Origin: Candidatus Cloacimonadota bacterium
GTDB lineage: Bacteria > Cloacimonadota > Cloacimonadia > Cloacimonadales > Cloacimonadaceae
Direction of reading: 5' to 3'
DNA length: 64,000 nt
Assembly (NCBI GenBank): GCA_028706475.1
Contig: JAQWBI010000001.1
Span: forward strand, 1 to 64,000
Part shown: in pieces, positions 8,562 through 63,550 of the stretch
Position numbering within the stretch: the first letter of the stretch is position 1
How the letters are laid out: every line of letters begins with the position of its first letter
Program-made: the position numbers and the translations under genes
Notes under the pieces: generated by a model
What the model was told of the DNA's origin: nothing
The model's input: the letters and a program-made list of their open reading frames with translations, nothing else
The model's database searches: none

Positions 8562-8878
8562 AGTCAAATCCTTGATTTCAGCTCTTTTTACAGTAGCTTT
8601 GCAATAGGTTGTAAGGCAGGAATATCTGTCAAGTTCTTTATGCAGAAGCTATTGTTTACCCCCAGCAACCGAATGGAGCATTTGAATTGTATCGCTCCTC
8701 ATACCCTTTGTTTGATCCAGTATTGAAGCTGATATCAAGGTGTTATCATCCTGTGCTCACCCGATGATAACCCGATAATATCTGGTTCAAGTATCGATAA
8801 CCCAAAGAGGAATGAAGCTTCTGAATCTACTTGGAGTTTGCAGCCCAGTAGCATAACAACATTCATGCTGACGAGTCA
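8562..8878. other. Intergenic region with dispersed palindrome copy A
   Basis: No gene is seen. A TTGACA box on the minus strand (8632-8627) is a plausible -35 for glgP, although no good -10 follows. The 52-bp repeat core lies at 8731-8782, with further arms out to roughly 8690-8825. About 120 bp here is closely similar to the copy at 54361-54480. The block GACGAGTCACTA at 8870-8881 is identical at 54519-54530, and in both places it carries the stop codon of the minus-strand gene. Confidence 0.6.
8731..8782 (+). repeat. 52-bp dispersed palindromic element, copy A
   Basis: Layout is half-sites GATATCAAGGT and GTTATCATCCT, centre GTGCTCAC, then inverted half-sites CCGATGATAAC and CCGATAATATC: 11+11+8+11+11 bp. 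It lies between two co-directional minus-strand genes (glgP start, comEA-like stop). Flanking arms (TTTGTTTGAT left, ATCGATAACCCAAAG right) extend the symmetry. It is in the same orientation as copies C, D and F. Confidence 0.85.
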
Positions 8879-9493
8879 CTAGAGACTGATGCGCTTGCGG
8901 TTCAACTCCAAAGTTTTGGTACCAATGCCTTTTACCTGCAAAAGATCTTCTATAGTATTGAAGAGACCATTTTGCTCCCGGTATTTAATGATTGCTTCAG
9001 CGCGGGATGGGCCTATCCGCATCAAAGTGCATAGTTCCTCCTGGCCTGCAGTATTGATGTTTACGATATTGCTACGGTTGGCCTTGGAGGATAATGCCCG
9101 GCTGGAGGATTCATCTGCTGCAGTGCTATCGCCAAAAGCGATCAGATAGGGCAGAATGCGGCGATAGGTTTTTACTCCGATACCTTTCACCAGCATTATT
9201 TGATTCATGGACGTGAAGGGATTGGTTTCACGATAGTTCAGGATATCCTGGGCACGCTTTTCCCCAATACCCGGTAGGCACATCAGCTCTTCCATGCTGG
9301 CAAACCGCAGATCCAGCATCATTTCTTCGTCTTCTTGCAGAGCTGCTTCGAGGCTGTCTGCCGCCTGCTGCTTCAAATCCTCTTTTCCCTTGTAGCCAAA
9401 GAGATTGAGTATGCTGCCCACGAGGATAAAAATCGAAAGCACCAAAAGTAGCTTTTGTTCCTGAGGAGTGAAGATATGGCGAAAGGCTTTCAA
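8879..9493 (-). CDS. ComEA-like membrane-anchored helix-hairpin-helix protein
   Basis: Predicted DNA-binding protein of 204 aa with one N-terminal membrane segment (residues about 14-33, LLLVLSIFILVGSIL). HhH modules include LCLPGIGEKRAQDIL-like, VKGIGVKTYRRIL, TLMRIGPSRAEAIIKYR and VKGIGTKTLE. The family includes ComEA, the DNA receptor in natural transformation, but many such proteins have other roles. The start is TTG 9493, overlapping the thioesterase stop as TTGA; later starts would lose the membrane anchor. The stop is TAG followed at once by in-frame TGA, within a repeat shared with 54519-54530. Confidence 0.75.
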   Translation of the reverse strand: MKAFRHIFTPQEQKLLLVLSIFILVGSILNLFGYKGKEDLKQQAADSLEAALQEDEEMMLDLRFASMEELMCLPGIGEKRAQDILNYRETNPFTSMNQIMLVKGIGVKTYRRILPYLIAFGDSTAADESSSRALSSKANRSNIVNINTAGQEELCTLMRIGPSRAEAIIKYREQNGLFNTIEDLLQVKGIGTKTLELNRKRISL

Positions 9494-9894
9494 TGTTCTT
9501 TGGCTACCACAAATACTGCCTCCGCTTCTGCATAAGTGGCGGAGAAATCGTATATTCTGGCTTCAGTGCGGATGGTTCTGGATTTAGCAGATACAATCCT
9601 GCCCCACAGTGTAATCTCTGTATCCGGGGACAGAGCTTTGCGATAGCTGATATTCAGCTTGGCTGTGTAGGCGAGTTTGCCGGAGTGAATCACAGCCTTT
9701 GCCATCACTTCATCCATAAGGGTGGAGATGATGCCGCCGTGGATCACATTGGGATAGCCTTCATACAGCTCCGAGAGCTTTAGGACGGCTTTGGCAGAGC
9801 CCATTTCGTCATAGCTGAAATCCACCTTCAGGCCTATGGGATTATCCTTGCCACAAACAAAGCAATTCCGATAGTCCTTATTAATTTCGTCCAT
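9490..9894 (-). CDS. Hotdog-fold thioesterase, PaaI family
   Basis: Probable acyl-CoA thioesterase of 134 aa. The family motif is IHGGIISTLMDEVMAKAV, with the conserved HGG and downstream acidic residue. The N-terminal CFVCGKDNPIGLK segment is typical of PaaI-like proteins with a Cys pair. ATG 9894 overlaps the preceding stop by one base (TAATG). The substrate cannot be deduced. It lies in a run of tightly coupled genes with no obvious shared pathway. Confidence 0.8.
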   Translation of the reverse strand: MDEINKDYRNCFVCGKDNPIGLKVDFSYDEMGSAKAVLKLSELYEGYPNVIHGGIISTLMDEVMAKAVIHSGKLAYTAKLNISYRKALSPDTEITLWGRIVSAKSRTIRTEARIYDFSATYAEAEAVFVVAKEH

Positions 9895-11351
9895 TATTCA
9901 GCGCACAGATAGTCTGCCCAGAAACTCAGTTTTTCTTCCAGATCGAAAGAAAAGCCCACCTGCTCCCAGGCGATATTGCCTTGTTTATCTATCACCACAA
10001 TGTGCGGAATTGCCTCTACACCATACTCTGCGGCCAGAGAATCGGTTCCCTCCAAGTATTCCATGGCAAATTCATTGTCGCGAAAATACGCTATGGCTCT
10101 GTCGTAATCGTTATCCATCACGTTTACGGAATAAACCTTCACACCTTCGGGCATTTTAGTTTGCACCCAATTGCTCAAAGCCGGCATCGTCATCTTGCAG
10201 GGACCGCACCACTGAGCCCAGAAATCCAGGATAATCACCTGCCCGCGCAGATCATCGGACTTGTGAATAATGCCATTGATATCTTTCAATTCCCATTGGG
10301 TTGCGGGTTTTACTCTCCTGCTTTGCAGCAAAGCAGCCTCCCGCTGGGGAGCTTCGGCATCATAAGTGTTCTTTGCCTGAGTGAGGAGGTTATTCCATTC
10401 CGGATTGCTTTCGAAATACGAATACTGAGGAGAATTGATCATTTCCGGATACTGCAGTGCTCCAAGCTCGATAGCCATACGCAAATACTCCAGAGCCTGC
10501 TGAGGGTCTTCATTTTCAAAATATGAATCTGCCAGATATTTCAGAACCTCTCCATTCTCTGTAACAGCGGGATTTTCGGATATATAATGTTCCATTGCTT
10601 CAATTCCTGCGCTGTCATATATAAATGAAAGCACAAACAGCACCTTGGAATCTTCCGCTTGTTTTTCATCGATTTTCCCGGCGGCAATGGCGGAATCCAT
10701 CAAGATATCTATCATGCTGCCATATACTTCAGAACTACCGGATTGAACACAGAGATCGTAGATAAAGGAGTAGTTGCTCTGAATGGTATTGGCATCCTTC
10801 AATTTTTCCAGATAGCTAAGCGCGGTGTTGAGCTTACCTTCGGAGCTGTATCGGTAGGTTTGCGCCAGCAGCAGATAATCGTCTTCGGGAAATTCCTTGA
10901 GTCCCTTGTCGATGATTTTGGTACCCTTATTGTAATCATCTGTATATAGATAGCTGTAATCTTGAATGTCCTGAGTGAATCTGAGCGCTACCAACCTGTA
11001 TCCCCAGTAGAATTTGGGGTGCTTTTGCACCAATGTGTAAGCTTCCTTTTTGTTATCTTCCAAGAGGCGGATGGACAGGTAAGCATAATCCGGATTGGCG
11101 GGATTGGCTTGGGCCAGGCGTTGATAATGACTCTGGCAGGCTTCCGGATCAAAAGTAGCCCAAAAGTCTTGCAGAGTACGGTGTTCATCTACGGTCTGAG
11201 CTTTATACAAGTATTCCTGTACCAGTTTGTGTTGAGCCGCTGTATCATCCTGGATGGCGGCGGCACGAGCGCTAAACTCTTCGAATGCGGCAGCCCAAAG
11301 GGCTCCGGATATTATGCTGATCATTATCAGCACACTTGCTATTTGTTTCAA
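9894..11351 (-). CDS. Exported TlpA/ResA-like thioredoxin with TPR-like N-terminal region
   Basis: Predicted periplasmic thiol-disulfide oxidoreductase of 485 aa. The start is TTG 11351, with GGAGG 4 nt upstream; it gives a clean signal peptide (MKQIASVLIMISIISGALWA). A longer frame would run into pgi. Residues about 30-330 are helical with TPR-like repeats (for example AQTYRYSSEGKLNTALSYLEKL). The C-terminal thioredoxin domain carries the redox motif WCGPC in VIILDFWAQWCGPCKMTMP, then a cis-Pro region AIPHIVVID. Large N-terminal TPR extensions on such thioredoxins are seen in Bacteroidota relatives. Confidence 0.8.
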   Translation of the reverse strand: MKQIASVLIMISIISGALWAAAFEEFSARAAAIQDDTAAQHKLVQEYLYKAQTVDEHRTLQDFWATFDPEACQSHYQRLAQANPANPDYAYLSIRLLEDNKKEAYTLVQKHPKFYWGYRLVALRFTQDIQDYSYLYTDDYNKGTKIIDKGLKEFPEDDYLLLAQTYRYSSEGKLNTALSYLEKLKDANTIQSNYSFIYDLCVQSGSSEVYGSMIDILMDSAIAAGKIDEKQAEDSKVLFVLSFIYDSAGIEAMEHYISENPAVTENGEVLKYLADSYFENEDPQQALEYLRMAIELGALQYPEMINSPQYSYFESNPEWNNLLTQAKNTYDAEAPQREAALLQSRRVKPATQWELKDINGIIHKSDDLRGQVIILDFWAQWCGPCKMTMPALSNWVQTKMPEGVKVYSVNVMDNDYDRAIAYFRDNEFAMEYLEGTDSLAAEYGVEAIPHIVVIDKQGNIAWEQVGFSFDLEEKLSFWADYLCAE

Positions 11352-11406
11352 AGATCCTCCATATATGTAGTTCTCCAGCGTAGCAATAAAGCAGGCTGAG
11401 ATAAAC

Positions 11407-14483: not shown

Positions 14484-14487
14484 AATT

Positions 14488-25404: not shown

Positions 25405-26466
25405 CTAGGTCTTGGGTTTCCAGTAATGCTGCCAAGCCTTCATATGGATGATCCTACCATCAAATCTGGGATAGATTTCCGATACGCAATATGAAAATGT
25501 GTCGTAGTGATAGTATCCGTCCCAGATCGTTTCGATCTCGCGGGAAGGCAAAGACATCCTCATCAAATCCGCCATACCGTGCTTCTCGCGAGAATACAGC
25601 AGTGTACCTAGATTTTGCGTGAAGGCATAGCTATAGCAATCCTCAATCGAAAAGATCTCATCATTCTGACGATCGTAAACCATTAGCACCGACGGATATC
25701 GCTGCGTTATCACATTACCAGAATATGAAACATGATCGTAAGGTTCTCTTTTACCTTGCAGAGCAAAATAACGTAAGTCTTTGCTGATCCGAGCATTGGG
25801 CATCTCATAATAATTATCTCTTGGGATCTCAAATATCAGGGATGAATCCCTCTGTGCGTTCATTTTGCATAATGCGTACTTTGGATCGAATGGCCCGGTA
25901 CTACTGTAGAAATAGTATTCATCTGTATCTTCGATGTAGACGGCATAGAATGCAGATACCGGCTCCGGCAATTCAGTCCAGATCCCGGTTTGGATATCCA
26001 TTCTAGCGATCTGACCGTGCTTGATGGCAGTAAGATAGTTGAAATTTGTCGATAACTCCGGAGCGCTATAATAGGATCCATCATCGGGGCTTAGGCGGCT
26101 GAAGTTGTTACCGTTCATATCAACACGACAAATGGCATAACCCATAGCGAAATACAACATCATGTTCAGCTTATCGATTGCAAGATGCTGAGTGTCTGTG
26201 ATATGGGAACCAGCCGGAGTAAGCTCTATGCCGGGACTACCAAGCTCTCGTCTCACCAATCTCTCGCCAAGGTGGAAGATCAGTTTATCGGAAGTATAGA
26301 ATGGCGTGCCATAAGTTTCTACTTCCAAGCTGTTATCCAGACGAAAACTGCTACCATCATCATTGATGCTGCAATACACCTGTACCGCCGGATTGCTTTC
26401 ACTACAAGCACCGGTGCAGAGAAACATAACCACTGCCAGTATTACAATAATGTAGGTACAACGCAT
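25405..26466 (-). CDS. Lipoprotein with TolB-like beta-propeller character
   Basis: The 353-aa protein has a lipoprotein signal (VVMFLCTGAC, Cys about residue 21). The rest is a chain of repeated four-strand units such as LAIDKLNMMLYFAMGYAICRVDMNGNNFSRLS and FALQGKREP, suggesting a WD40/TolB-like propeller. Function is unknown; it may be surface- or periplasm-facing. ATG 26466 has AAGGAGG upstream. A TTGACA box (26523-26518) and a perfect palindrome GCAAATTTGC (26493-26502) sit in its promoter region. Confidence 0.65.
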   Translation of the reverse strand: MRCTYIIVILAVVMFLCTGACSESNPAVQVYCSINDDGSSFRLDNSLEVETYGTPFYTSDKLIFHLGERLVRRELGSPGIELTPAGSHITDTQHLAIDKLNMMLYFAMGYAICRVDMNGNNFSRLSPDDGSYYSAPELSTNFNYLTAIKHGQIARMDIQTGIWTELPEPVSAFYAVYIEDTDEYYFYSSTGPFDPKYALCKMNAQRDSSLIFEIPRDNYYEMPNARISKDLRYFALQGKREPYDHVSYSGNVITQRYPSVLMVYDRQNDEIFSIEDCYSYAFTQNLGTLLYSREKHGMADLMRMSLPSREIETIWDGYYHYDTFSYCVSEIYPRFDGRIIHMKAWQHYWKPKT

Positions 26467-26715: not shown

Positions 26716-26871
26716 CACCCCACTAAAACGCTGCGCATTTTCGTGGGGACACCGGCAATCCTCGGAGAACCCAGCCAACCTCAATACTGCAGCACTGTAG
26801 CACCGTTCAACAGGTACGAAGCAACTCATCGCGAGCTATTCATCCTCCATACATCAAGCAGTGCCGAAGTA

Positions 26872-26923
26872 GATATCATCCCGTTATCATCGAGTGGTCA
26901 CTGCTTGATAACAGCTTTATATC
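26872..26923 (-). repeat. 52-bp dispersed palindromic element, copy B
   Basis: Half-sites GATATCATCCC and GTTATCATCGA, centre GTGGTCAC, then TGCTTGATAAC and AGCTTTATATC. It is in reversed orientation relative to copies A, C, D and F, because the AAGC-type arm is on the right. It lies between divergent genes. Flanks ATACATCAAGCAGTGCCGAAG and GGATCGGCAC continue the symmetry. Confidence 0.85.
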
Positions 26924-26971
26924 TGGATCGGCACAAGTGAAGCAAGAAGGATAGACCTCTGCAGAATTATT

Positions 26972-27015: not shown

Positions 27016-28044
27016 ATGATAAAGTTTGTATATTTATTACTGCTTGTGCTGCTATGCACTACGCTTGCAGCTCTCGACATCGATCAAAGCCATTACGGCT
27101 TCACACCCGGCGCACAAAGAGATTATCGGCAAGGAGCATGGAATCAAAACACTACCGACCTCAGCGAAGGCAACGGAAAAAGCTGGAACTTCTCTTTGCC
27201 CCAGACCGGTTATGTGCACAACAGCTATTATAGTACAAATGCGCTCCCGGATTATCCCGGCGCCAATATCCGCTGCGCATACACTCAGTACATAAACGGG
27301 ATAGATGATGCAGGCACTACATATCTGCAAAATGACGGCATAGATATCATCACTCTGGGCTATACCGGCTATCCCAATGTAGTATGGAATCCGGGCATTC
27401 CTCACGGTTTACCGCATACAATTAACAAAACCTGGCAGGGCACGCATGCATGGCTTTATGGCAGCTACACCGTTAGCGGAAAAGTGATCTCCGAAGGCAG
27501 TATCAGCATCCCTCTGGGTAGTTTTCCCGCCCTGTGCATAAGGTATCATTACGAAACCACAAATTTCGATTACTACTACTATCAATGGGAAACCACGGAA
27601 TATGGAATTGTGGCTTATGCAAACACCCTAAACGGCGGCATGCTCTATGTGCTGGAAGATGCAGAACCCAATGGCTCAGCGCTGGATGAAGAGCTTGCCT
27701 GCGCAGTTCCAGAGCTATGCCTGTACCCCAATCCGATGCTGAATACCAGCCCAGTAGCGGGACTTTCCATCGAATTCAGCATGGCAAAGAAGCCCGCTGG
27801 ACAACCCGTGATTCGGATCTACAACCTAAAGGGACAAAAAGTAAAAACCATCGTCCTGACCGATGAATGCAGCCTGGGTAACAAATCCGGGCTCCGCAGC
27901 GATCCAAAGCAAAACGGGATATTCTATTCCACACTTTGGAATGGCAGGGACGATAACGATAGAAAGCTGACATCCGGTACATATATTGCAAAGGTGATGG
28001 CGGATAAGGAAGTAACTACGGCAAAGTTCACGATTGTCAAATGA
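27016..28044 (+). CDS. Secreted protein with C-terminal T9SS-like sorting domain
   Basis: The 342-aa protein has a signal peptide (MIKFVYLLLLVLLCTTLAA). A Tyr/Gly-rich beta domain spans about residues 20-230. The C-terminal FlgD-like/T9SS type-A-like domain begins at CLYPNPML and includes IRIYNLKGQKVKTI and SGTYIAKVMADKE. Such domains direct export and surface attachment in Bacteroidota and relatives; the secretion machinery is not in this window. ATG 27016 follows GAGG. The N-terminal domain is not recognised. Confidence 0.75.
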   Translation: MIKFVYLLLLVLLCTTLAALDIDQSHYGFTPGAQRDYRQGAWNQNTTDLSEGNGKSWNFSLPQTGYVHNSYYSTNALPDYPGANIRCAYTQYINGIDDAGTTYLQNDGIDIITLGYTGYPNVVWNPGIPHGLPHTINKTWQGTHAWLYGSYTVSGKVISEGSISIPLGSFPALCIRYHYETTNFDYYYYQWETTEYGIVAYANTLNGGMLYVLEDAEPNGSALDEELACAVPELCLYPNPMLNTSPVAGLSIEFSMAKKPAGQPVIRIYNLKGQKVKTIVLTDECSLGNKSGLRSDPKQNGIFYSTLWNGRDDNDRKLTSGTYIAKVMADKEVTTAKFTIVK

Positions 28045-36280: not shown

Positions 36281-38032
36281 TCAATCTTCTTGTATGATCT
36301 TCACGGGACGCGCTATATATTTGGTGTGCAAGAGCTTTTTGGCTCTATCGCTGTTGGGCGCACCCAGATACTCTTTATAAAGGTTTAGGATGGATTCATT
36401 GTTGTGAGACTCTCTGCGTTCTGCAAGTTCGTCCTCTTTGTACAGTCCCTTGGCACGGGCTGAGCGAACCCGGTTTGTGCTGCGATATGGCTGACCGCCA
36501 CCGCCCACACAACCACCGCTGCAGGCCATCACTTCCACAAAGTGGTAGGGAGGTTCTTTGCCGGCTTGCTTTGCCTCACGGATTTCGTTCATCAATTTGC
36601 TTACATTGCCCAAACCTGAGGCTACTCCGATGCGGATTTCCTTGCCTAGCAGATTGATCGTGCCTTTTTTGATCCCTCTGGAACCGCGCACAAAGTCGAT
36701 CTTGGGATTCGGCAATTCTTCGCCAGTAGCCAATTTGTAAGCAGTACGCAGAGCCGCTTCCATCACACCTCCGGTGGCTCCGAAGATAGTGCCTGCACCA
36801 CTGTATTCGCCCAGAGGATTATCTGCATGGCCTTCTTCCAGCTTCGCCATATCTATGCCGCGGGTTTTCAGCATCCGCGCCAATTCGCGAGTGGTGATGG
36901 TGAGATCCACGTCCTTGCGGCCGCTGGCATACATGTCTTCCATGCGTTCGATCTCATATTTCTTTGCCGTGCATGGCATTACGGACACCAGGAAGATTTT
37001 GTTGGGGTCGATGCCCATCTTTTCTGCCCAATATGTCTTCACCATTGTACCCACCATCTGATGCGGACTCTTTGAGGAAGAGAATTGCGGGATGAGGTCG
37101 CTGTGGAACTTCTCCAGATAATCCACCCAGGAAGGGCAACAGGTGGTGATGAGCGGGAATTTCTCCGGATGTTCTGTGAAGATATGTACAAATTCGCTGG
37201 CCTCTTCCATGATGGTGAGGTCTGCCCCGAAGTTTGTGTCAAACACATATTTGAAGCCCAATTCACGTAAAGCGCTGTACATCTTGCCTTTCACGTTCGT
37301 TCCGGGTTTGTAGCCAAATTCTTCACCCAAAGCCACGCGCACCGCCGGAGCTTCCTGAGCCACCAGCACCAGATCGGGATTGTCCAGCGCTACCCACAAG
37401 GGATCGCTGTCGTCACATTCATAGATGGCTGCCACGGGGCAATAAGCGCTGCATTGTCCGCATTTTACACATTCGCTGCTCTCCAGCGGACGATCAAAGG
37501 TGGGTCCCACGTAGGTTTCGAAACCGCGATCACTGTTTTGCAGAGCATGAACGTCCTGAACCTCGTTGCACACATAGGTACAGCGTCCGCACTGAACACA
37601 ATATGATGGGTCTAAAGTGATGGAGGGAGAGGATTCATCACGACCCTTATACTTACGTTTTACCTTCTTCAGATGCATGTGGCGGATGGCGAGCTCCTGA
37701 GCCAAATCCTGCAATTCACAGCGTCCGTTTTTGATACATTCCGGACAGTTGTTGGGATGGTTCGATAGGATAATCTCCACCGCTTCCCGTCTCAGATCCA
37801 ATAGCTTTTTGCCAGTAGTCTTTATCTGCATCCCATCTTCACAAGGAGTGGAACAAGCCCGCACAGTGCGGCCGTTGATCTCAACCATGCATACACCGCA
37901 ATTGCCAAATGCGGGCAGATCCTCATGATAACATAGATGGGGAACCGGGTATCCGGCTTTTGTGCATGCATGCAAAACCTTGGTATTCTTGAGCACCTTG
38001 GTGGCCTTGCCGTTTACAAATACTGTAATCAT
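36281..38032 (-). CDS. hydA: [FeFe]-hydrogenase catalytic subunit (HndD/HydA type)
   Basis: Makes or oxidises H2. The 583-aa protein shows a [2Fe-2S] domain (Cys 34, 45, 48, 60), a His-Cys3 cluster (His 92, Cys 96, 99, 105), and two 4Fe-4S motifs (Cys 145-155 and 188-198). The H-cluster motifs are TTCCPSW (Cys 298/299), MPCTAKKYE (Cys 354), and EVMACSGGCVGGGGQP (Cys 504, 508). L1 has Thr where TSCCP is usual. This architecture normally works with NuoE/NuoF-like subunits, which are not adjacent. ATG 38032 follows GGGAGAG. Confidence 0.95.
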   Translation of the reverse strand: MITVFVNGKATKVLKNTKVLHACTKAGYPVPHLCYHEDLPAFGNCGVCMVEINGRTVRACSTPCEDGMQIKTTGKKLLDLRREAVEIILSNHPNNCPECIKNGRCELQDLAQELAIRHMHLKKVKRKYKGRDESSPSITLDPSYCVQCGRCTYVCNEVQDVHALQNSDRGFETYVGPTFDRPLESSECVKCGQCSAYCPVAAIYECDDSDPLWVALDNPDLVLVAQEAPAVRVALGEEFGYKPGTNVKGKMYSALRELGFKYVFDTNFGADLTIMEEASEFVHIFTEHPEKFPLITTCCPSWVDYLEKFHSDLIPQFSSSKSPHQMVGTMVKTYWAEKMGIDPNKIFLVSVMPCTAKKYEIERMEDMYASGRKDVDLTITTRELARMLKTRGIDMAKLEEGHADNPLGEYSGAGTIFGATGGVMEAALRTAYKLATGEELPNPKIDFVRGSRGIKKGTINLLGKEIRIGVASGLGNVSKLMNEIREAKQAGKEPPYHFVEVMACSGGCVGGGGQPYRSTNRVRSARAKGLYKEDELAERRESHNNESILNLYKEYLGAPNSDRAKKLLHTKYIARPVKIIQED

Positions 38033-38097: not shown

Positions 38098-38222
38098 GCG
38101 AATAGCTGATTGCATTCTAGTAATGAATGAAGTATGTATAAAGGGGGTGTTGCGGTGTTGTGGTTCTGCAGGTGAATGCTCACGTGCCATTCATTCTCTC
38201 TATTTCAACCAGAGTTGAAGCT

Positions 38223-38274
38223 GATATCAAGCTGTTATCAAGCAGTGCTCACTCGATAATAACCCGATGATATC
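38223..38274 (+). repeat. 52-bp dispersed palindromic element, copy C
   Basis: Half-sites GATATCAAGCT and GTTATCAAGCA, centre GTGCTCAC, then TCGATAATAAC and CCGATGATATC. Flanks AGTTGAAGCT and TGCTTCATCACG continue the symmetry. It lies between divergent hydA and rrf2. Confidence 0.85.
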
Positions 38275-38340
38275 TGCTTCATCACGACTTGATGCATAGA
38301 GGATGAATGGAACGCAGATGGCTGTTCCCCTTTCGTAGCT

Positions 38341-47053: not shown

Positions 47054-48277
47054 CTATTTATCTAACTCTGCACCCGGTATAGACTTCGCCAGCGATGCAG
47101 TCTCTTTCAGCGATATTTGTACATAGCGTTTCCGCAGCAAACTGAAGGCCATCACCAAGCGGTGATCGTTTTGCGTATCCAACTGCACTGCAGGCAGTTC
47201 CCTGTTCCCGATAGGATATAGCTCCAAATAGTCCTCATTCAGCACATAAGCCACCCCGATCAAATCCAGCACCCGAGCTATTCCCAATACCCGGTCACTC
47301 TCTTTATGCTTCAACCTGGCAATGCCCCGCAGAACAGTTTTACCATCACAAAAGAGCGCCAGAATGCTAAGGATAGGCATCAGATCAGGACAATCCCTCA
47401 GATCCAAGTCCACAGCCTTCATCCTTCCCGGTTTGATATTACAAACGCTTCCAGACCAATCTACTTGCGCCCCCATCTGAGTCAGGATTGGGAAGATTGC
47501 CATATCGGCCTGAGGATATTCCGGATTGATTTGTAGCTGCATCCGCACACCTTCCGGCTGCACAGCACCAAGGGCGGCGTAAAATGCTGCAGTAGAGATA
47601 TCTGAATCCACAGTAAAGTGCCGGGGAAGGCTGTACTTACCCCGCAATACCCGAAGATAATCTCCCTCTTCCATGATCTCTGCCCCAAAGGTCTTCAACA
47701 TCTGCAGACTAAGCTGAAGATAGGGCAGCGAAACCTGATATTGATCCCGCCTCAACCAGAGGTCATTCTGCATGTAAGGTGCGGCAAGCACAAGAGAACT
47801 GGCGAATTGACTGCTGATTGAATCTCGTAAATCGACCTTTCCACCGTTCAGACAGCTTGAGTCTATAGTCAGGATGTTTTCGTTAGGTGAAAACGCTGCT
47901 CCCATTGATTCCAGAGCATTGCGTAAAGGAGTATAACCCCGCTTTTGCAGGATATCCGAAATTGCTATGTAAGACTTTGTTCCCTTGAGGTTTGCCAACA
48001 CCGAAAGCCACAATCTGAAGGCGGTGGCGGATTCCTGAAACTGATACTTATGCGAACTTGCCAGATGTGCGTTCTCATTGAAGTGGAAATGCATGCCATC
48101 TTGTTTTTTCTCTACATGATAGCCGAATGTCTTCATTGCGCTTTCCAATTCCACTACATCAGCGCAAGGATTGTAGTTTTCCAGCCTGATATCCGCCCTG
48201 GCATGGGCTGCCAGCACCATTATCCGCTGTAATATGGATTTTGATCCGGGTATTTTGGGTAGCATCGTAAGTTTCAT
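47054..48277 (-). CDS. aroA: 3-phosphoshikimate 1-carboxyvinyltransferase (EPSP synthase)
   Basis: Shikimate-pathway enzyme joining shikimate 3-phosphate and PEP. The 407-aa protein has PGSKSILQR at about 10-18, SSQFASSLVLAAP, a DISTAAFYAALGA segment, RLKHKESDR and NDHRLVMAF. Where most enzymes have LGNAGTAMR this one has QESATAFR, so Ala replaces the Gly equivalent to E. coli Gly96, a change known from glyphosate-insensitive class II enzymes. It is convergent with the nucleotidase gene (9-bp gap). Other aro genes are not in the window. Confidence 0.9.
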   Translation of the reverse strand: MKLTMLPKIPGSKSILQRIMVLAAHARADIRLENYNPCADVVELESAMKTFGYHVEKKQDGMHFHFNENAHLASSHKYQFQESATAFRLWLSVLANLKGTKSYIAISDILQKRGYTPLRNALESMGAAFSPNENILTIDSSCLNGGKVDLRDSISSQFASSLVLAAPYMQNDLWLRRDQYQVSLPYLQLSLQMLKTFGAEIMEEGDYLRVLRGKYSLPRHFTVDSDISTAAFYAALGAVQPEGVRMQLQINPEYPQADMAIFPILTQMGAQVDWSGSVCNIKPGRMKAVDLDLRDCPDLMPILSILALFCDGKTVLRGIARLKHKESDRVLGIARVLDLIGVAYVLNEDYLELYPIGNRELPAVQLDTQNDHRLVMAFSLLRKRYVQISLKETASLAKSIPGAELDK

Positions 48278-48561: not shown

Positions 48562-48613
48562 TTCAACCTTATGTGTGCTATTCCTCCTGTATACATCAAG
48601 TGGTACCGAAGCC

Positions 48614-48665
48614 AATATAAAGCCGTTATCAAGCAGTGGTCACTCGATGATAACACGATGATATC
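48614..48665 (+). repeat. 52-bp dispersed palindromic element, copy D
   Basis: Half-sites AATATAAAGCC and GTTATCAAGCA, centre GTGGTCAC, then TCGATGATAAC and ACGATGATATC. The left flank ATACATCAAGTGGTACCGAAG matches that of copy B. Confidence 0.85.
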
Positions 48666-48752
48666 TGCTTCAGCAGAGGATGATTCTCAGGGGAAGGATT
48701 ATTCATTCCATATGCTTTTGGGCTGTTAAGCAGCTTCAGCCCAAGTTCCTGC

Positions 48753-52718: not shown

Positions 52719-53609
52719 ATGAATGTTATGACAGAACAACAAGATACAAAGATTATCAACAATAATGAATTAAGTCCCACAGGCTTGGGAGAATTGCGTC
52801 CAGAGAAGGGACCCTTGTATGCCAAATTGGCGATACTGCTGCTTTTGCTGGTGCTTTCAGCCGGATTTGGTTACCTAATGAACGCGATGTCGGAAAGCCG
52901 CAAGCTTGCTCTTTTGGAAGAAGAGAACAGGCTTTTGCGCGCCAAAATAGAGCTCTACGATGCCACGGTCGATTCCATCCACTGCATGCTTGATTCCCTG
53001 GGTCTGAAGAGTGAAAAGAAGAACAATCCTGCTCTCTATCGCGGTGGAGCAAGCCTCACAAATCATAGTTTCGCTGATCCAAAACTGAAACTGAAGATTG
53101 AAGATACCGAGAAGAAACTGGTTCATATCATGCAGGTTTTGGTACCAAATCTCCCTGAAAGCCCTCTTCTGCAAGAGGACACAGAGATCGTGGATGGAGA
53201 TATCCCCTCGATATATCCCACTTTCGGTCGCATCTCAGACGCCTGGGGCACTCGCATTCACCCCATCACAAACAGTCTGGAATTTCATTATGGTATAGAC
53301 ATCGCCAATGAGATGGGAACTCCAGTCTATGCTACAGCTGCGGGCACAGTAGTTTATGCCGATTATGATGATGGCTATGGCAAACGGATACTGGTGGATC
53401 ATGGCAATGGTTATCGCAGTATGTATGCCCATCTCTATACCTCCCGCGTAAAGGCAGGCGAGACCGTTACAAAAGGGCAGATCATCGCTCTGATGGGCAA
53501 TAGCGGGCTCTCCACCGGGCCACACCTGCATTATGAAGTGCACCTGAACGAACGCAAGGTGAATCCGGCAAACTACCTCAACCGCGTGGACCGCTATGCT
53601 ATGCGCTGA
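52719..53609 (+). CDS. M23-family (LytM) peptidase, membrane-anchored
   Basis: Predicted cell-wall endopeptidase or amidase-activator of about 296 aa. One membrane helix is near residues 35-55 (LAILLLLLVLSAGFGYL). A coiled coil follows (LLEEENRLLRAKIELYD). The C-terminal LytM domain has HYGIDIANEMGTPVYA (H-x3-D) and GPHLHYEV. The zinc His residues are intact, so it may be active. Starts at ATG 52719 or 52728 are both possible; no strong Shine-Dalgarno decides. Confidence 0.85.
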   Translation: MNVMTEQQDTKIINNNELSPTGLGELRPEKGPLYAKLAILLLLLVLSAGFGYLMNAMSESRKLALLEEENRLLRAKIELYDATVDSIHCMLDSLGLKSEKKNNPALYRGGASLTNHSFADPKLKLKIEDTEKKLVHIMQVLVPNLPESPLLQEDTEIVDGDIPSIYPTFGRISDAWGTRIHPITNSLEFHYGIDIANEMGTPVYATAAGTVVYADYDDGYGKRILVDHGNGYRSMYAHLYTSRVKAGETVTKGQIIALMGNSGLSTGPHLHYEVHLNERKVNPANYLNRVDRYAMR

Positions 53610-54234
53610 TAAGAGCGCATGGTTGATCACCAATCATGCTCCGAATAGGATTCTCTCCTCATATACCGGCATCGATGGCGATATTATAGCTGTGGATGGC
53701 GGGCTGCAAACCGTCTTTGAACAAAAGCTTTCACCCAAGATAATTGTAGGAGATCTGGATTCGCTCAATCCGGCTTTATTTAATGAGTATCCGGATACAC
53801 CCCTGTTGCGTCATGAATCCCGCAAGAATGCCACGGACACCGAATTGGCGCTGGATTGGTGTGTAACGCAGGGATATACCCGCATAATTATCTGCAATGA
53901 TATGCAGGGACGCTTTGATCACTGTCTGGCAATCGTTCAGAACCTTCTTGATCTGCACCGGCAAGGGATCATGGCATTCATAGAGAGCGATAGCCAGCGC
54001 ATCTTCTTCATTCGGGAATCACTGACATTGAAGGGTAAAAAGGGAGATTTGCTCTCGCTGGTTGCCTACAGTCCCTGCGTGTGTTTCATTGCGTCCGAGG
54101 GGCTTGAGTATCCGCTGAAAGGCCTTAGGATACATCAACACCAAAGCCGCGGCATCAGCAATGTGTTTGACCGAGAAGAGATCAGCCTGAAAGTGGCAGA
54201 AGGTGAGGTTCTGGCTATATATACCCCGCTGTAG
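53596..54234 (+). CDS. thiN: Thiamine pyrophosphokinase
   Basis: Converts thiamine to thiamine diphosphate. The 212-aa protein has AVDGGLQTV, IIVGDLDSL, RKNATDTELALDW, and the C-terminal Ser/Gly-rich RGISNVF thiamine site. ATG 53596 overlaps the peptidase stop by 14 nt; TTG 53623 is an alternative. Its place at the end of the ECF run suggests imported thiamine is trapped by phosphorylation. Confidence 0.9.
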   Translation: MLCADKSAWLITNHAPNRILSSYTGIDGDIIAVDGGLQTVFEQKLSPKIIVGDLDSLNPALFNEYPDTPLLRHESRKNATDTELALDWCVTQGYTRIIICNDMQGRFDHCLAIVQNLLDLHRQGIMAFIESDSQRIFFIRESLTLKGKKGDLLSLVAYSPCVCFIASEGLEYPLKGLRIHQHQSRGISNVFDREEISLKVAEGEVLAIYTPL

Positions 54235-54527
54235 GGCTTGCGGACTATATATAGAACCGGTGTTTGCCGTATATACTATCTAGGGTCATGTCAAGCTAGG
54301 TATGGGAATATCTGTAATACCACAGCAACCGAGGGCAACTTGTGAATTCCTCCTCTTTCCCTTTGTTTGATACAGTGTTGAAGCTGATATCAAGCCGTTA
54401 TCATCCTGTGTTCACTCGATGATAACCCGATAATATCAGGTTCAAGTATCGATAAACCAAAGGGGGAATGAAGCTTTTGCATCGTTCTGTAGAAGTATCT
54501 GCAAAATTGGAGTTCAGCGACGAGTCA
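54235..54527. other. Convergent intergenic region with palindrome copy F
   Basis: No gene is seen. The 52-bp core at 54386-54437 has arms reaching roughly 54345-54480, nearly matching copy A. The last bases GACGAGTCACTA (54519-54530) repeat 8870-8881 and contain the SNase stop codon. No clear terminator for thiN was found; the palindrome itself could serve. Confidence 0.55.
54386..54437 (+). repeat. 52-bp dispersed palindromic element, copy F
   Basis: Half-sites GATATCAAGCC and GTTATCATCCT, centre GTGTTCAC, then TCGATGATAAC and CCGATAATATC. It lies between convergent thiN and the nuclease gene. Confidence 0.85.
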
Positions 54528-55184
54528 CTATGGTTTGCAGACCTTGCATGCCTCATAGCCCTTTAGTAAAGCCTCGGAGAGTGGAATGGGCAGAGAACCT
54601 TCCTTTGTGTAGCGGCAGCTGTTGCGATGGTATTTACTACTTCCGGGATTGAACCAGACCAGGCTATCAGATGACGCCACAGTGTCTTCCGCTTCGCCCC
54701 AAAGACCGAGCTGTTGCATCCGGGCATCACGTTCCAGCTTCAGAAAATCCTCCAGATAAGTGAAAGGATAGGAAGTATAGACAAAGCCATAGCCTTGCTT
54801 GATGATTTCGGCGTTTATGAAGAGGGAGTCACTGGCGCGATATGCATAAGCCAATGTCCTGTCATAGCGGTCTTTGTGGTTAGTAGCACTGTTGCTTTGG
54901 TCGTACTTGAAATATACCCTTTCATCCTTCAGTAAGGTTTTCAGATAATCGCTTGCCTCCAGAGCATAGTGCTCCACGTCTTTGTTTGGATGCACAGATT
55001 CCGGGGTATCCACTCCGATCAGACGGATGCGCTCGTCCTTGCCGTCGATGTAAGCGATGAATGTGTCTCCATCCACTACCCGCACTACTCTGTAGGTATC
55101 TGTAGCTATAGAGCTCTTTTCCGGGCATGTAAAGATACCCAGCAGAATGATGAGAAGCATCGTGATGATAAGAACGTATTTCAT
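54528..55184 (-). CDS. Secreted thermonuclease-like (SNase) protein with C-terminal Cys motif
   Basis: Ca2+-dependent nuclease fold of 218 aa. The N-terminal hydrophobic signal is KYVLIITMLLIILLGIF, possibly with lipid-modified Cys after it. SNase motifs are VVDGDTFIAY, RIRLIGVDTPES (catalytic Arg and Glu), and DRYDRTLAY. The C-terminal unit KYHRNSCRY with CKVCKP resembles the small Cys domain found on some ComEC and nuclease proteins. ATG 55184 lies 4 nt after the ABC ATPase stop. The stop TAG is followed in frame by TGA. Confidence 0.85.
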   Translation of the reverse strand: MKYVLIITMLLIILLGIFTCPEKSSIATDTYRVVRVVDGDTFIAYIDGKDERIRLIGVDTPESVHPNKDVEHYALEASDYLKTLLKDERVYFKYDQSNSATNHKDRYDRTLAYAYRASDSLFINAEIIKQGYGFVYTSYPFTYLEDFLKLERDARMQQLGLWGEAEDTVASSDSLVWFNPGSSKYHRNSCRYTKEGSLPIPLSEALLKGYEACKVCKP

Positions 55185-55188
55185 GGTG

Positions 55189-55956
55189 TTAGGGATAAAT
55201 GATGTTGTTGGTACCGGAAATGGGATTGCGGGCAGTGCTAAGCCTGATTCCATAGAGATCGCTGAGGATATCGTCTTGCATCAATGTATCGGGCTTACCG
55301 TTATGCAGCAGACTGCCATTTCTGATGAAGAGCATACGGTCGGCATAGTTTGCAGAAAGATTTAGGTTGTGCGAGATAAGCAGGATACCCTTGTGCTCTT
55401 CACTGCAAATACTGCGTAACAGGCGCATGATCTCCAGCTGATAGTTGATGTCCAATTGGGAAAGGCTTTCATCCAGCAGGATGTAAGGAGTTTGCTGCAC
55501 CAAGGCTCTGGCGATGTAAACGCGCTGTTTCTCGCCTCCACTGAGTTGGTGTAGAAATCTGTGGCGCAAGTGATGCAGTTCCAGCCGCCTAAGAGTGATA
55601 TCGACTAGTTCCCGATCCTCTTCGCTGTGATTCTGCATGATGTCCATAAAGGGGTATCGCCCCATCAATACAGTATCGGCCACACTGTAGTCAAATTCAC
55701 TATGCAGCTCTTGGGGAATGTAGGCAAAGATGCCAGCCAGTTCTGTCCTGCTGTAAGCTCCCAGCTGTTTGTCCCGGATCAGGATCTTACCCTTGCGAGC
55801 TTTCAGAAAGCCCATCAGAGCGAAGAGCAGAGTAGATTTACCCGCTCCGTTTGGTCCCAGTAGTGCGGTAAATTCCGCTGCTGGCAATTCAAAAGAAACA
55901 TCGCTCAGGATGTCCTTCTCATCATATCCGCAGTAGAGGTTTTGTACTTTGATCAC
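55189..55956 (-). CDS. FecE/BtuD-type ABC transporter ATPase
   Basis: The 255-aa ATPase of the iron-siderophore/haem/cobalamin importer family. Walker A is GPNGAGKST, the signature LSGGEKQRVYIARAL, Walker B YILLDESLSQLD, and the switch is LLISHNL. GRYPFMDIM is typical of FecE-like proteins. The start is GTG 55956, with no alternative ATG nearby. The cognate permease and binding protein are not in the window; it stands in an unrelated run. Confidence 0.85.
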   Translation of the reverse strand: MIKVQNLYCGYDEKDILSDVSFELPAAEFTALLGPNGAGKSTLLFALMGFLKARKGKILIRDKQLGAYSRTELAGIFAYIPQELHSEFDYSVADTVLMGRYPFMDIMQNHSEEDRELVDITLRRLELHHLRHRFLHQLSGGEKQRVYIARALVQQTPYILLDESLSQLDINYQLEIMRLLRSICSEEHKGILLISHNLNLSANYADRMLFIRNGSLLHNGKPDTLMQDDILSDLYGIRLSTARNPISGTNNIIYP

Positions 55957-59299: not shown

Positions 59300-60149
59300 T
59301 ATCCGCCTCCTTATTCTCCGGCTTTTCACTAACCACCACCACTGGTTCTGCGTTTCCCAGGATCGCTTCGTGTTCATACACTCTGAGGTTGAAGTAAATC
59401 ACAAGCGTGGCAATCAGGCTCAATATCCCCATCGAGGCAAAGCTCCACCACGAAGCCAGGTTTTCCCAGCGCTCCAGATACACCCCCAGATAATACAATC
59501 CGCTCACCACTCCACCGGGAACCAGCATCATCAACCAGCTATGGGCTGCATTGAGTTTATTGTGACGCATCACATCCACCACACTGATCAACTGTCGTTT
59601 TTGCTTCAGATAGATGTGCAATTCATAGCTGAGGCGGCTGAAGATAAAGATGAGAAACAAGAGCAATCCCACAAAGATATTCAGGATCAGATTACGATGG
59701 GACAGCCTGTCCAATTCTTCCATTATCTTGCCGTAAGCGCTTGTCTGAGCGTCGATATCTTCTTCCGGCAGATACATGCGCAAGAGATCCATCACCCGGG
59801 CTTTGGCCTCGATCCCCGCTTTGTTCGAGGGAAAAGTGATAGTGAAGACATCCGGAAAACTATATGTGGACACCATATCATTGGTGAGCGGCAAGGCATA
59901 AGCTTCAATCAGCTCCAGCGCCGCCTGATACCCAGTCTCGTATTCATAGCCTTTTAAGGGAGAAATTCCCTCCAGTCCATTTCTGATGGGCTCCACATGA
60001 GTGGTATCCGCCACATAGGCATAAACTGGAAGCAATGAAAGCTCATTATAACAAGCCTTCACGCTTTCTCCCTGATTGTGTGCCAGATATGCCCAGGCTC
60101 CAAAGAGCAGACTCAGCAGCACCAGGATCAGATAAAATCTTGCGTTCAT
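59292..60149 (-). CDS. Membrane protein with FtsX-like topology
   Basis: The 285-aa protein has one N-terminal helix (residues about 5-22), a large periplasmic domain, then three C-terminal helices at about 155-175, 205-225 and 240-260. This is the layout of FtsX permeases. The segment LIEAYALPLTNDMVSTYSFPDVFTITFP, shown in parts, resembles their extracellular loop. No ftsE neighbour is present and motif similarity is weak, so the family call is tentative. The C-terminus is acidic and soluble. It overlaps the methyltransferase stop as ATGA. Confidence 0.5.
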   Translation of the reverse strand: MNARFYLILVLLSLLFGAWAYLAHNQGESVKACYNELSLLPVYAYVADTTHVEPIRNGLEGISPLKGYEYETGYQAALELIEAYALPLTNDMVSTYSFPDVFTITFPSNKAGIEAKARVMDLLRMYLPEEDIDAQTSAYGKIMEELDRLSHRNLILNIFVGLLLFLIFIFSRLSYELHIYLKQKRQLISVVDVMRHNKLNAAHSWLMMLVPGGVVSGLYYLGVYLERWENLASWWSFASMGILSLIATLVIYFNLRVYEHEAILGNAEPVVVVSEKPENKEADNA

Positions 60150-60763
60150 ATAACATCCCTGTGTTTTATGATGGCCAATAAGAAGGCCTTGTTACCATAA
60201 TGTATTGTGTGCTTGATTATGTCAAGTAGAGTGTTCCCGATGAGCTGCTGAAGGTCTTCCCACCGCTGTGCGGGATAGATCAGTATTGCCTTTCCCTGCG
60301 GTGCCATCAAACGCTGGATGGATGCCAGCAGCTCTTCCATATTGATTTCCAGCTCAAAGCGGCAGATATTACGTTCGCTATTGGGACTCAGATGCCCGCT
60401 GTTCAGCTTGCGCCAGGGCGGATTGGTAAAAACCAGATCATATTGCCCGGTAAGCTCTTTCATGTTACCGCAATGCAGCTCCAGTTCCACTCCGCAAGCC
60501 GCCGCATTCTGCCATGCCAGAGCCGCCAGATGCGTCTGAATCTCAATGGCGGAAATTTTCCACAGAGGCCGGGAAAGTGCGCACATGATGCTTACAATCC
60601 CACAGCCGCAGCCCAGTTCCACTGCTCGTAGAGCTCCATGCCCACCGGTGGCAATCACTTCCCGATATAGCAATTCTGCGGCAATTGATACTCCCTGACC
60701 GGAGGAATCCTGCTTGATCTTTTTGCCTGCAAAGGGCAGCAGCACTTCCTGATATGTCGCCAA
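60146..60763 (-). CDS. TrmN6/YfiC-like N6-adenine methyltransferase
   Basis: SAM-dependent methyltransferase of 205 aa. Motif I is AVELGCGCGIVSI and the catalytic motif is FTNPPW, the N/DPPY/F type that targets exocyclic amino groups. It resembles enzymes modifying A37 of tRNA1(Val). The N-terminal FAGKKIKQDSSGQGVSIA suits this family. The start is TTG 60763, 12 nt after nadA. The substrate is not certain. Confidence 0.78.
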   Translation of the reverse strand: MATYQEVLLPFAGKKIKQDSSGQGVSIAAELLYREVIATGGHGALRAVELGCGCGIVSIMCALSRPLWKISAIEIQTHLAALAWQNAAACGVELELHCGNMKELTGQYDLVFTNPPWRKLNSGHLSPNSERNICRFELEINMEELLASIQRLMAPQGKAILIYPAQRWEDLQQLIGNTLLDIIKHTIHYGNKAFLLAIIKHRDVI

Positions 60764-60775
60764 AGGCAGCCCACC

Positions 60776-61678
60776 TCAGGACAGAGCCAGCATGCGGTCT
60801 ATGCTTTCTCTTGCTTTCTTTGCTATTGCTTCATCCACCACAATGTGATGGCGGCTTTCTTCTAAAGCCTTCAATACATCCCGCACTGTGGTCTTTTTCA
60901 TGTTCTGACACACCGCTTTGGGAGATAGCGTAATGATCTTTTTATTCGGATAAATATGCTTCAGATAGTCCGTCAGCCCGTTCTCTGTGGCTATTATCAC
61001 CTTGTCGTTTTGCTCCACATACTTCATCATGCCTCCGGTGGACATCACCATATCTGCTTCATTCACGATGACGGGATCACATTCCGGATGCGCCAGCAGT
61101 GCGTAATCTGGATACTTGGTTTTCAGATTGCGGATGTCTCCCAGTCCAAAGCCCCATTGATGGGTGGGACAGTAACCGTTCCAGGTGATCACCTTACGCC
61201 CGCTCTGATGCGCTGCCCAGGAGCCCAGGTTTCGATCCGGCACAAAGAGTATATCCTTATCCGCCGGCAGTGATTGCAACACCTTCACAGCATTGGAGGA
61301 TGTACAGCAGATATCGCTTTCGGCTTTCACTTCCACCGTGCTGTTTACATAACACACCACCGGACTGCCGGGATGCTGGGCTTTGAACTGCCGCAATTGG
61401 TCCGCACTTATCATGTCCGCCATGGGGCATCCTGCGTCCAGCACGGGCAGGAGCACTGTGGAGCTTTCATTCAGAATGGCTGCAGTTTCTGCCATGAATC
61501 TCACGCCGCAAAAGACGATCATGGGATTCTTCAGATCCCGCGAGAGCATTGCCAATTGCAGTGAATCCCCGCGATAATCCGCCAAATCCTGGATTTCCAC
61601 AGCCTGATAGTTATGCGCCAAAATCAGTGCATTATGCTGTTTTTTAAGCAGCAATATTCTATCGATTATATCGTTCAT
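60776..61678 (-). CDS. nadA: Quinolinate synthase A
   Basis: [4Fe-4S] enzyme making quinolinate from iminoaspartate and dihydroxyacetone phosphate. The 300-aa short form has cluster Cys in DAGCPMAD, WNGYCPTH and KAVCQNMK. LILAHNYQ and DLADYRGDS start the fold. ATG 61678 follows AAGGAACAG. nadB and nadC are not in the window. Confidence 0.95.
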   Translation of the reverse strand: MNDIIDRILLLKKQHNALILAHNYQAVEIQDLADYRGDSLQLAMLSRDLKNPMIVFCGVRFMAETAAILNESSTVLLPVLDAGCPMADMISADQLRQFKAQHPGSPVVCYVNSTVEVKAESDICCTSSNAVKVLQSLPADKDILFVPDRNLGSWAAHQSGRKVITWNGYCPTHQWGFGLGDIRNLKTKYPDYALLAHPECDPVIVNEADMVMSTGGMMKYVEQNDKVIIATENGLTDYLKHIYPNKKIITLSPKAVCQNMKKTTVRDVLKALEESRHHIVVDEAIAKKARESIDRMLALS

Positions 61679-61690
61679 TATCTGTTCCTT

Positions 61691-62125
61691 TTAGTGTCCG
61701 CTGGAGCCAAATCCCCCCGCTGCTCTGTGGGTTTCGTCCAGGCGTTCACACTGCTCAAATTCTATGCTTTCCACCCGCTGTATGACCATCTGGGCGATGC
61801 GCATACCGGGCGTAATCGTTACTGTTTTTCTACTCAGATTGATCAGGATCACTCTGATCTCGCCCCGATAATCCGAATCGATGGTTCCCGGAGCGTTCAA
61901 TACACTCAACCCCAGCTTCAGAGCCAGACCGCTGCGCGGGCGAATCTGCGCTTCATGGTTTTCGGGCAGAGAGATCGCCAGACCGGTAGGCACCGCTATC
62001 CGCTCAATAGGCTCCAGAAGGATGTCTTCTGGGATGCAGGCATAGAGATCGTATCCGGCGGCACCGCTGCTCATCCGCCGGGGTTCGACGGCGTCGGGAT
62101 GCAGCTTTTGATAGCTGATTTTCAT
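61691..62125 (-). CDS. dut: dUTP diphosphatase
   Basis: Trimeric dUTPase of 144 aa, producing dUMP and preventing uracil incorporation. The five motifs are visible, including [38 protein letters not shown] and [13 protein letters not shown] 62125 overlaps the ispA stop as ATGA. Confidence 0.95.
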
Positions 62126-63012
62126 GACTTGCGGTTCAATAGATAATCCGCCAATACCATCAGGCGCAAACCGCGTTCGCCAAAGTGAGAGATGCTTTCT
62201 TTGGCCTTTGCGGTAAGATCCATGGCCATCTGCCGGCTTTGTTCGATACCATAAATAGCAGGGAAAGTAGCTTTGCCCTGAGCTTCGTCTTTACCAATGC
62301 TCTTACCCAGTTTTGCCTCGCTACCTTCTATATCCAGCAGGTCATCGACAATCTGGAAGACCAGACCGATTTTGGTGCCATAATCTTCGATAATGGCCAG
62401 GTCTTTGGCACTGGCTTTTGCGGCAAGGGCGCCAAAACGCAGGCTCACATTGATCAGCTTCGCAGTTTTATTGTTATGAATAAAGTTCAGGGTCTTTTTA
62501 TCCACATTCTTACCCTCGGAATCGATATCCATCATCTGTCCGGCGATCACACCTTTGATGCCCGCTTCCTGAGCCAATTCGCGCACAAATTGCACTTTCA
62601 GGGCATCGTCGATCTCGGCATAGGTAATCAGTTCAAAGGCATTTACCAAAAGAGAATCCCCTGCCAATAGCGCTACACCTTCTCCGAATACGGCATGACA
62701 GGATTTCTTGCCGCGACGGTATTCATCGTCATCGATGTCCGGCAGATCATCATGGATGAGCGTGTAGGTGTGGATCATCTCGATGGCAGCGGCAACCGGA
62801 GCGATGGCATCCAATTCGTCTTTATAGAGTTGATAAGCCAGAAATGTGAGATATGGGCGCAAGCGTTTTCCACCGGCAAAGGTACTGTATCTGAGAGCTT
62901 TATGTATATCCTTGGGGTATTCGTCCTTGCGGGGCAGATAACGATCCAGGATGATATTCACCAATTCCTGTTTTTCTTTCATGTCCTTTTTTAAGAGTAC
63001 TTTAGGATCCAT
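62122..63012 (-). CDS. ispA: Polyprenyl (farnesyl/geranylgeranyl) diphosphate synthase
   Basis: Chain-elongating prenyltransferase of 296 aa. The first Asp-rich motif is [11 protein letters not shown], then RRGKKSCH; the second is [20 protein letters not shown] is typical of the family. Product length (C15 or C20) cannot be fixed by eye. ATG 63012 overlaps xseB by 11 nt, matching the common xseB-ispA pairing. Confidence 0.93.
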
Positions 63013-63238
63013 TATTCATCTCCTGAACCTTACCCGGGAGTTCTTCGCTGAGGATCTTGATCTTGGCTTCCGCCTCACCCAGCTTCGCTTGACAGCGCTT
63101 GAGATAGTCCACTCCCCGGGCATAGAGCTGTAGCATCTCATCAAGATTTGTCGCATTATTCGAGAGCCGGTCAACGATCTCCTCCAAGGCTTTCAAAGCC
63201 TCTTCAAAACTGAGCTCTTCGGGATTTGTATTTTCCAT
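63002..63238 (-). CDS. xseB: Exodeoxyribonuclease VII small subunit
   Basis: Small helical subunit of exonuclease VII, 78 aa. The motif LSFEEALKALEEIVDRLSNN, then LDEMLQLYARGVDYLKRCQAKL, is characteristic. ATG 63238 has GGGAGAG upstream; a longer frame lacks support. xseA is not adjacent. It heads the eleven-gene minus-strand run. Confidence 0.93.
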   Translation of the reverse strand: MENTNPEELSFEEALKALEEIVDRLSNNATNLDEMLQLYARGVDYLKRCQAKLGEAEAKIKILSEELPGKVQEMNNGS

Positions 63239-63264
63239 GCTTCTCTCCCTTATCTTTTTGACCG

Positions 63265-63292
63265 AGTATAAGCAATTCATGGATTCTGTCAA
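63265..63292 (-). promoter_or_regulatory. Promoter of the xseB-ispA-dut-nadA run
   Basis: TTGACA on the minus strand at 63292-63287 and TATACT at 63270-63265, 16-bp spacer, about 27 bp before the xseB ATG. This is the best promoter match in the window. Confidence 0.7.
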
Positions 63293-63498
63293 ACAAAAAA
63301 TTCATTCTTTGTTCAAATACAGATAATTGCAGGGCTGATATTTCTGGAAATAGCAGCAAAGATTAGTAGTCATACGATACTATATTCGAAGTTGATGTTG
63401 AAACTTTTATATTGCAGAAGCTTCATATTGAATCATTTCGGCTGTTTAAGCGGTAATCCACAGCGTTCTACCTCTCTATATTATCCTGTTTAAAAGCA

Positions 63499-63550
63499 GA
63501 TATCATCCCGTTATTATCGAGTGAGCACTGGATGATAACGCCTTTATATC
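63499..63550 (-). repeat. 52-bp dispersed palindromic element, copy E
   Basis: Half-sites GATATCATCCC and GTTATTATCGA, centre GTGAGCAC, then TGGATGATAAC and GCCTTTATATC. Orientation is reversed like copy B. The right flank AGCTTCGGCACTGCTTGA matches the arm of copy B. Confidence 0.85.

Follow-up and report, generated by a model that had tools for sequence, protein, structure and literature searches.

A 64,000-nucleotide stretch of a Cloacimonadota genome (positions 1 to 64,000 of contig JAQWBI010000001.1, assembly GCA_028706475.1; hereafter the window) contains six intergenic copies of a palindromic element built from 11-bp units. Elements of the same plan recur at even physical intervals along the chromosomes of several species of the Cloacimonadaceae, and their unit sequence is replaced from one species to another. 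Both the even spacing and the replacement go beyond what had been described in the original prediction, an earlier note made from the letters of the window. These results suggest an undescribed genome-wide chromosome-organising system in Cloacimonadota. As the best explanation, to which we give somewhat less than an even chance, we propose that each element is a composite site at which an oligomeric protein recognises specific DNA sequences, and that these sites would mark the chromosome at regular physical distances.

Results

A high-copy intergenic element

The source genome (G000) is a metagenome-assembled genome of 2.06 Mb in 90 contigs. Its MnmE has Cloacimonetes/Cloacimonadota metagenome-assembled genomes as named relatives, in line with membership of Candidatus Cloacimonadota. 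According to the original prediction, the six copies share a core of exactly 52 bp with the plan 11 + 11 + 8 + 11 + 11 bp. The core positions (Table 1), this plan, and the absence of insertions and deletions from all six cores were borne out on re-examination, and the copies were indeed never inside genes (6/6 intergenic). When the inner pattern GTTATCAnnnnGTGnnCACnnnnTGATAAC was searched with up to three mismatches, exactly these six matches were obtained in the window, and 100 dinucleotide shuffles gave none. The same search of the whole genome yielded 131 copies, and the pattern read backwards yielded none. In 788 kb of G000 annotated with our gene caller, 57 of 59 copies were intergenic; the other two lay inside predicted open reading frames, which are possibly miscalls.

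The earlier view that the family is uncatalogued also held, as an Rfam search of the window at gathering scores detected a tRNA-Lys only and left the element unmatched. The exact core pattern had no match in named GTDB contigs, a search set that possibly excluded G000 itself. No match was found in phage, plasmid, or viral-contig records either, and an origin from such sources was rejected on this lack of matches.

Even spacing along the chromosome

The 59 copies in the 788 kb of G000 defined 49 gaps with a mean of 12.6 kb, a minimum of 5.0 kb, and a coefficient of variation (CV) of 0.41. Random intergenic placement of the same number of copies, drawn 20,000 times, gave a CV of 0.81 ± 0.09 and approximately 13 gaps shorter than 5 kb, and not one of these draws was as even as the genome. 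Against the same null, the CV was 0.47 versus 0.88 in G003, a species of the same genus (P = 5e-5), 0.15 versus 0.78 in 200 kb of G005, where the gaps ranged from 11.1 to 18.0 kb, and 0.19 versus 0.79 in G008, and as-even draws numbered 0/20,000 in each of the latter two. Genome-wide, G008 carried 115 copies with 82 gaps, a CV of 0.28, and a range of approximately 7–25 kb. In the whole-genome lists of G000, G003, G008, and G018 together, only 1 of 286 gaps was shorter than 5 kb, whereas approximately 62 were expected. In each of the five species tested, bp gave a lower CV than any of the other measures of distance, namely genes, intergenic regions, and transcription units. Divergent gene pairs had a mild excess of copies between them (odds 2.1, p = 0.004).

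The G000 assembly breaks at copies, since 16 of its 90 contigs start within 600 bp of one (approximately 3 expected). Such breaks cannot account for the missing short gaps in G008, which is 99% complete, or in G005.

One plan, unrelated sequences in other species

Among 50 genomes of the family, relatives of the G000 core profile were identified in G003 only, with the shifted consensus GATTTTAAGCT GTTATTATGC. The elements of the other species were of different sequence: a 92-bp palindrome around GATGCAGTnnnnACTGCATC in G005, an element of approximately 115 bp in G008, CTAGTGATCCC units in G018 (another genus), ATGACCACATC units in G001, and CATTGCTTACC units together with two further unit sequences in G020, which we take to be Candidatus Cloacimonas acidaminovorans. 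Nevertheless, the best self-similarity lag was 11 bp in six of six species with unrelated sequences (z = 43, 27, 8, 12, 21, and 7). A sequence-blind detector, which combined the lag with a palindrome in intergenic DNA, returned 63 sites when the lag was set to 11, of which 59 belonged to the main family, but only 0–1 sites at lags 9, 10, 12, and 13. In 737 kb from other phyla, lag 11 was no commoner than other lags. The original prediction regarded the repeats as half-sites one helical turn apart for a bound protein. The idea of such half-sites was strengthened, because 11 bp tops the self-similarity in six species of unrelated sequence, while the binding protein itself is something we only infer.

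Elements of other sequence were also found inside gaps of the main family, at G018 C11 118578, at G020 101448, 145367, and 160772, and at G005 C87 76247. G018 has a second family of TTCGACTTGAT units, seen at L140 10504 and at the C11 site above. On contig C10 of G003, a second array type with CCTCCCAAAGA units was observed, one copy of which (47921) sits in a gap of the main family. In addition, a contig from a more distant member of the Cloacimonadota (L142) contained one near-perfect 11-bp array palindrome, beginning CACCTTCGCCTCGAGATCGCCTCGAGAC, at 5751, which suggests that the architecture extends beyond the family. Convincing arrays were not found in G028, from another family of the order, or in the 60 kb of G007.

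Anatomy of the element

Aligned G000 copies were conserved from approximately −63 to +64 about the dyad. Thus, the exact 52-bp core was confirmed, but the conserved unit is larger, approximately 127 bp. Its consensus reads TCCCT.Tg..GaaGC, then GATATcAAGcc GTTATcAtcCa GTGnnCAC TCGATGATAAC CCGATgATATC, then tGcTTC...CA.AGgGg. Conservation was highest in the inner units, and the element ends in pyrimidine/purine-rich terminal inverted repeats of the CCCT..AGGG type. The covariation check proposed with the original prediction was run on 17 copies, and compensatory changes were absent from the core stem (0/18 pairs). The numbers of units in the two arms were asymmetric in the elements of G018 and G001. 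Because compensatory covariation is absent and the arm unit numbers may differ in relatives, double-stranded half-sites describe the core better than a conserved RNA hairpin does.

A long form of approximately 285 bp (−134 to +150) accounted for 19 of the 59 copies, about a third, including those at 8731 and 54386 in the window, and many of the 19 had common ends (approximately −134/+150). It looks like a recent spread, and it may be a miniature inverted-repeat transposable element (MITE) that contains the element. In a test for target duplication, the best diagonal reached z = 4.4 at −72/+65, a value confounded by the long-form copies.

Conservation of positions

When orthologous intergenic regions of G000–G003 and G003–G005 were pooled, 4 regions held an element in both genomes, 2 in one only, and 16 in neither (p = 0.003); regions were few overall, and the table includes five G000–G005 regions that are empty in both. 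At three shared sites, the elements of G003 and G005 had unrelated sequences: G003 C58 7.5 kb and G005 C87 24.1 kb, G003 C58 114.8 kb and G005 C87 57.9 kb, and G003 C8:17610 and G005 C12 49465, the last of which a G000 copy (C76:4318) also adjoins. The G003–G005 set alone is too small for significance, as approximately one-third of the larger intergenic regions hold an element. The site of a long-form copy in G000 (C4 11.4 kb) also holds an element in G003 (C58 131.2 kb).

A separate observation concerns the element at 123.5 kb of contig C1 in G008. Its flanks match those of two different G000 elements (C1 113–144 kb), as if rearrangement breakpoints fall at elements.

The copies in the window and their surroundings are listed in Table 1, together with two sets of features located elsewhere in G000.

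Table 1. Coordinates of the element copies and associated features (window positions unless a G000 contig is named).
Feature	Location	Strand	Remarks
Copy 1	8694..8819, core 8731-8782	+	long form (subfamily A); right arm TCAC CCGATGATAAC CCGATAATATC
Flanks of copy 1	6057-8567; 8879-9493	-; -	glycogen phosphorylase; HHH protein
Copy 2	26835..26960, core 26872-26923	-	flanked by divergent genes 25405-26466 (-) and 27016-28044 (+)
Copy 3	38186..38311, core 38223-38274	+	between divergent genes; upstream of Fe-hydrogenase gene 36281-38032 (-)
Copy 4	48577..48702, core 48614-48665	+	intergenic, right of EPSP-synthase-like gene 47054-48277 (-)
Copy 5	54349..54474, core 54386-54437	+	long form; homology to other long copies ~54278-54515
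Flanks of copy 5	53596-54234; 54528-55253	+; -	convergent genes
Copy 6	63462..63587, core 63499-63550	-	right of polyprenyl synthetase 62122-63012 (-)
RAYT-like Y1 transposase, 216 aa	G000 C46 (locus L024) 189-839		own inverted repeats CGTGCCTCTGGCACG on both flanks, forming a REP family separate from the element
G000 contigs beginning ~500 bp or less from an element	C2, C4, C5, C8, C16, C26, C28, C35, C38, C42, C52, C59, C63, C66, C74, C80

Discussion

Here, we propose that subunits of a DNA-binding protein would occupy the 11-bp units, one per helical turn and on one face of the DNA, as two inverted unit arrays around the dyad within the pyrimidine/purine-rich terminal inverted repeat. Sites located roughly every 10–15 kb could serve as anchors of loops, domains, or topology, or as a scaffold for segregation, and selection would maintain the physical distance between them. 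The unit sequence shifts quickly between species, presumably tracking the specificity of the protein, and copying between sites would homogenise it by concerted evolution; the 285-bp long form may be one such sweep. A more specific version is still more tentative: Cloacimonadaceae may possess a genome-wide system of mile-posts, 11-bp-unit dyad arrays approximately every 10–15 kb, with which a fast-evolving DNA-binding protein would measure or fold the chromosome and whose unit sequence is fully replaced between species.

Several points weigh against a marking system of this kind. The trans-acting protein was not identified. Several unit sequences occur within one genome (G018, G020, and G003), and a single sequence-specific protein without paralogues does not explain their coexistence; on contig C10 of G003, an array of other sequence (2345) is separated from a main element by only 2 kb. 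The main family of G018 is dense on contigs C1, C4, C11, and C14 and nearly absent from C2 (at least 405 kb); because C2 is nearly empty and a second family exists, element families may be regional within this chromosome. The spacing test for G018 was weak over 140 kb (P = 0.04). Positions are kept only between close species, and sharing between G000 and G008 is at chance level; therefore, individual sites turn over, the spacing being restored or kept. Moreover, the shared ends of the 285-bp form give it the look of a mobile element.

The main rival builds on this last likeness. In a non-autonomous MITE-like family, the 11-bp arrays would be transposase-binding sites, target immunity over approximately 5–10 kb would lead through saturation to even spacing without any host function, and genic insertions would be purged by selection. 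Target immunity is known for Tn7, Mu, and Tn3. This model agrees with the many copies, their bias towards intergenic DNA, the terminal inverted repeats, and the species-specific families, as well as with the 19 long-form copies with common ends and the loss or replacement of elements over longer times (G000 versus G008). Gap ranges of approximately 1:1.6 to 1:1.8 in G005 and G008 C1 recall a random sequential filling process that respects an exclusion zone. However, the confounded test above gave no convincing target duplication, neither an autonomous copy nor a dedicated transposase was found in the part of the genome that was read, and the RAYT of G000 carries another repeat. Within a genome, elements that differ in sequence mostly avoid each other as well, with the one exception at 2 kb; immunity restricted to a family would not produce such avoidance. 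The long-form copy at G000 C4 occupies a site that is also filled in G003, and a saturated family on the same 11-bp plan would have to be present separately in every species that was sampled well. PF05621 was considered as a sign of immunity-type transposons and rejected; its matches were generic AAA/IstB-like ones and uninformative, as 13 of 14 control genomes matched as well. On balance, we consider the MITE-like model unlikely, although a serious contender.

Unrelated sequences under one architecture would also be explained if the elements were strong sites, placed evenly, for DNA gyrase or a different DNA-wrapping topology protein, since approximately 130 bp of phased, dyad-symmetric DNA would be recognised and the sequence could drift freely. 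BIME repeats are gyrase sites in Escherichia coli, and a spacing that is regular in bp suits this idea. The appeal of a gyrase-like wrapping site lies in the extent of the G000 element, which matches the E. coli gyrase motif, a sequence-degenerate motif from −63 to +66 with 10.75-bp periodic flanks (PMC6379681). In contrast to that motif, which has a non-periodic cleavage region at its centre, the periodicity here consists of repeated sequence and is strongest centrally. A period near 11 bp in GC content was present in G000 and G003 only and absent from G005 and G008, and the enrichment was at divergent rather than convergent gene pairs. Wrapping sites therefore seem to us quite improbable.

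A role as regulatory or mRNA elements for adjacent genes, for instance as operators, terminators, or ERIC-like elements of mRNA stability, agrees with the intergenic position, the capacity to form hairpins, and the mild enrichment between divergent genes. Against this stand the genome-wide even spacing, the lack of a common gene class in the window, the occurrence of copies in every gene orientation, and the absence of both an Rfam match and covariation. We judge such a role very improbable, and a terminator or RNA element was rejected on the Rfam, covariation, and gene-context results. The original prediction also named a RAYT/Y1 enzyme as one partner to look for, and a RAYT is encoded in G000; REPs, like the elements, are intergenic palindromes (PMC3116915). 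The sole RAYT of G000 (C46:297-554), however, is flanked by the different repeat given in Table 1, its 2-kb locus holds no copy of the element, and G005 and G008 carry elements without a Y1 (PF01797) match. Spread of a REP/REPIN family by a RAYT (Y1) transposase is thus hardly credible; such an origin of the main family is refuted by the RAYT flanks, barring a further RAYT in unassembled DNA.

The persistence of spacing and architecture while the sequence is replaced suggests a distance rule along the chromosome. The open-access literature yielded neither an account of palindromic repeats at even spacing nor one of such elements in Cloacimonadota, and we found no precedent for sites that are evenly spaced yet replaced in sequence. 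Even spacing is not known for any previously described dispersed repeat of bacteria, and the chromosome-organising sites known so far keep their sequence. If the proposed marking is true, the elements would provide a readable genome-wide domain map for a phylum with few cultured members, and the question of whether fixed-interval sites set the folding of bacterial chromosomes would become testable.

Comparison with known systems

REP, BIME, and REPIN sequences resemble the Cloacimonadota elements in being extragenic palindromes of high copy number and species-specific sequence, whereas the latter are much longer, are single evenly spaced sites, do not lie at a RAYT, and occur without a RAYT match. 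ERIC/IRU and other MITEs share an imperfect intergenic palindrome of approximately 127 bp (127 bp in ERIC, PMC2229807), terminal inverted repeats, and more than 100 copies. The elements described here differ from them in their 11-bp units, even spacing, and unrelated sequences on one plan within a genus, and in that target duplication was not shown. We know of no 11-bp plan in ERIC. The E. coli gyrase motif and BIME-2 sites are similar in length (approximately 130 bp), dyad centring, and phasing of approximately 11 bp, but not in the sequence repeats of the core, the even spacing, or a GC periodicity that is not general here.

Arrays of 11-bp repeats that are bound by an oligomer, and that vary between systems, are also found in parC of plasmid R1, the site of the ribbon-helix-helix protein ParR. 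In contrast, parC is a single plasmid locus of direct repeats beside parM, whereas the present arrays are inverted and occur at more than 100 chromosomal places. ParR of R1 needs at least two 11-bp repeats (PMC9426499); by analogy, this binding may serve as a lead rather than a test. No parM or parR match was present among the flanking proteins scanned, a scan that did not extend to ribbon-helix-helix proteins encoded in trans. The parS, matS, KOPS, Noc, and SlmA sites are likewise dispersed short sites, each for one protein with a role in chromosome architecture. Their sequences stay conserved over broad groups, and they are clustered or regionally skewed, unlike the Cloacimonadota elements with their even spacing of approximately 12 kb and fast sequence turnover. 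The complete turnover of unit sequence proposed here would be comparable to that of rapidly evolving centromeres and PRDM9 sites.

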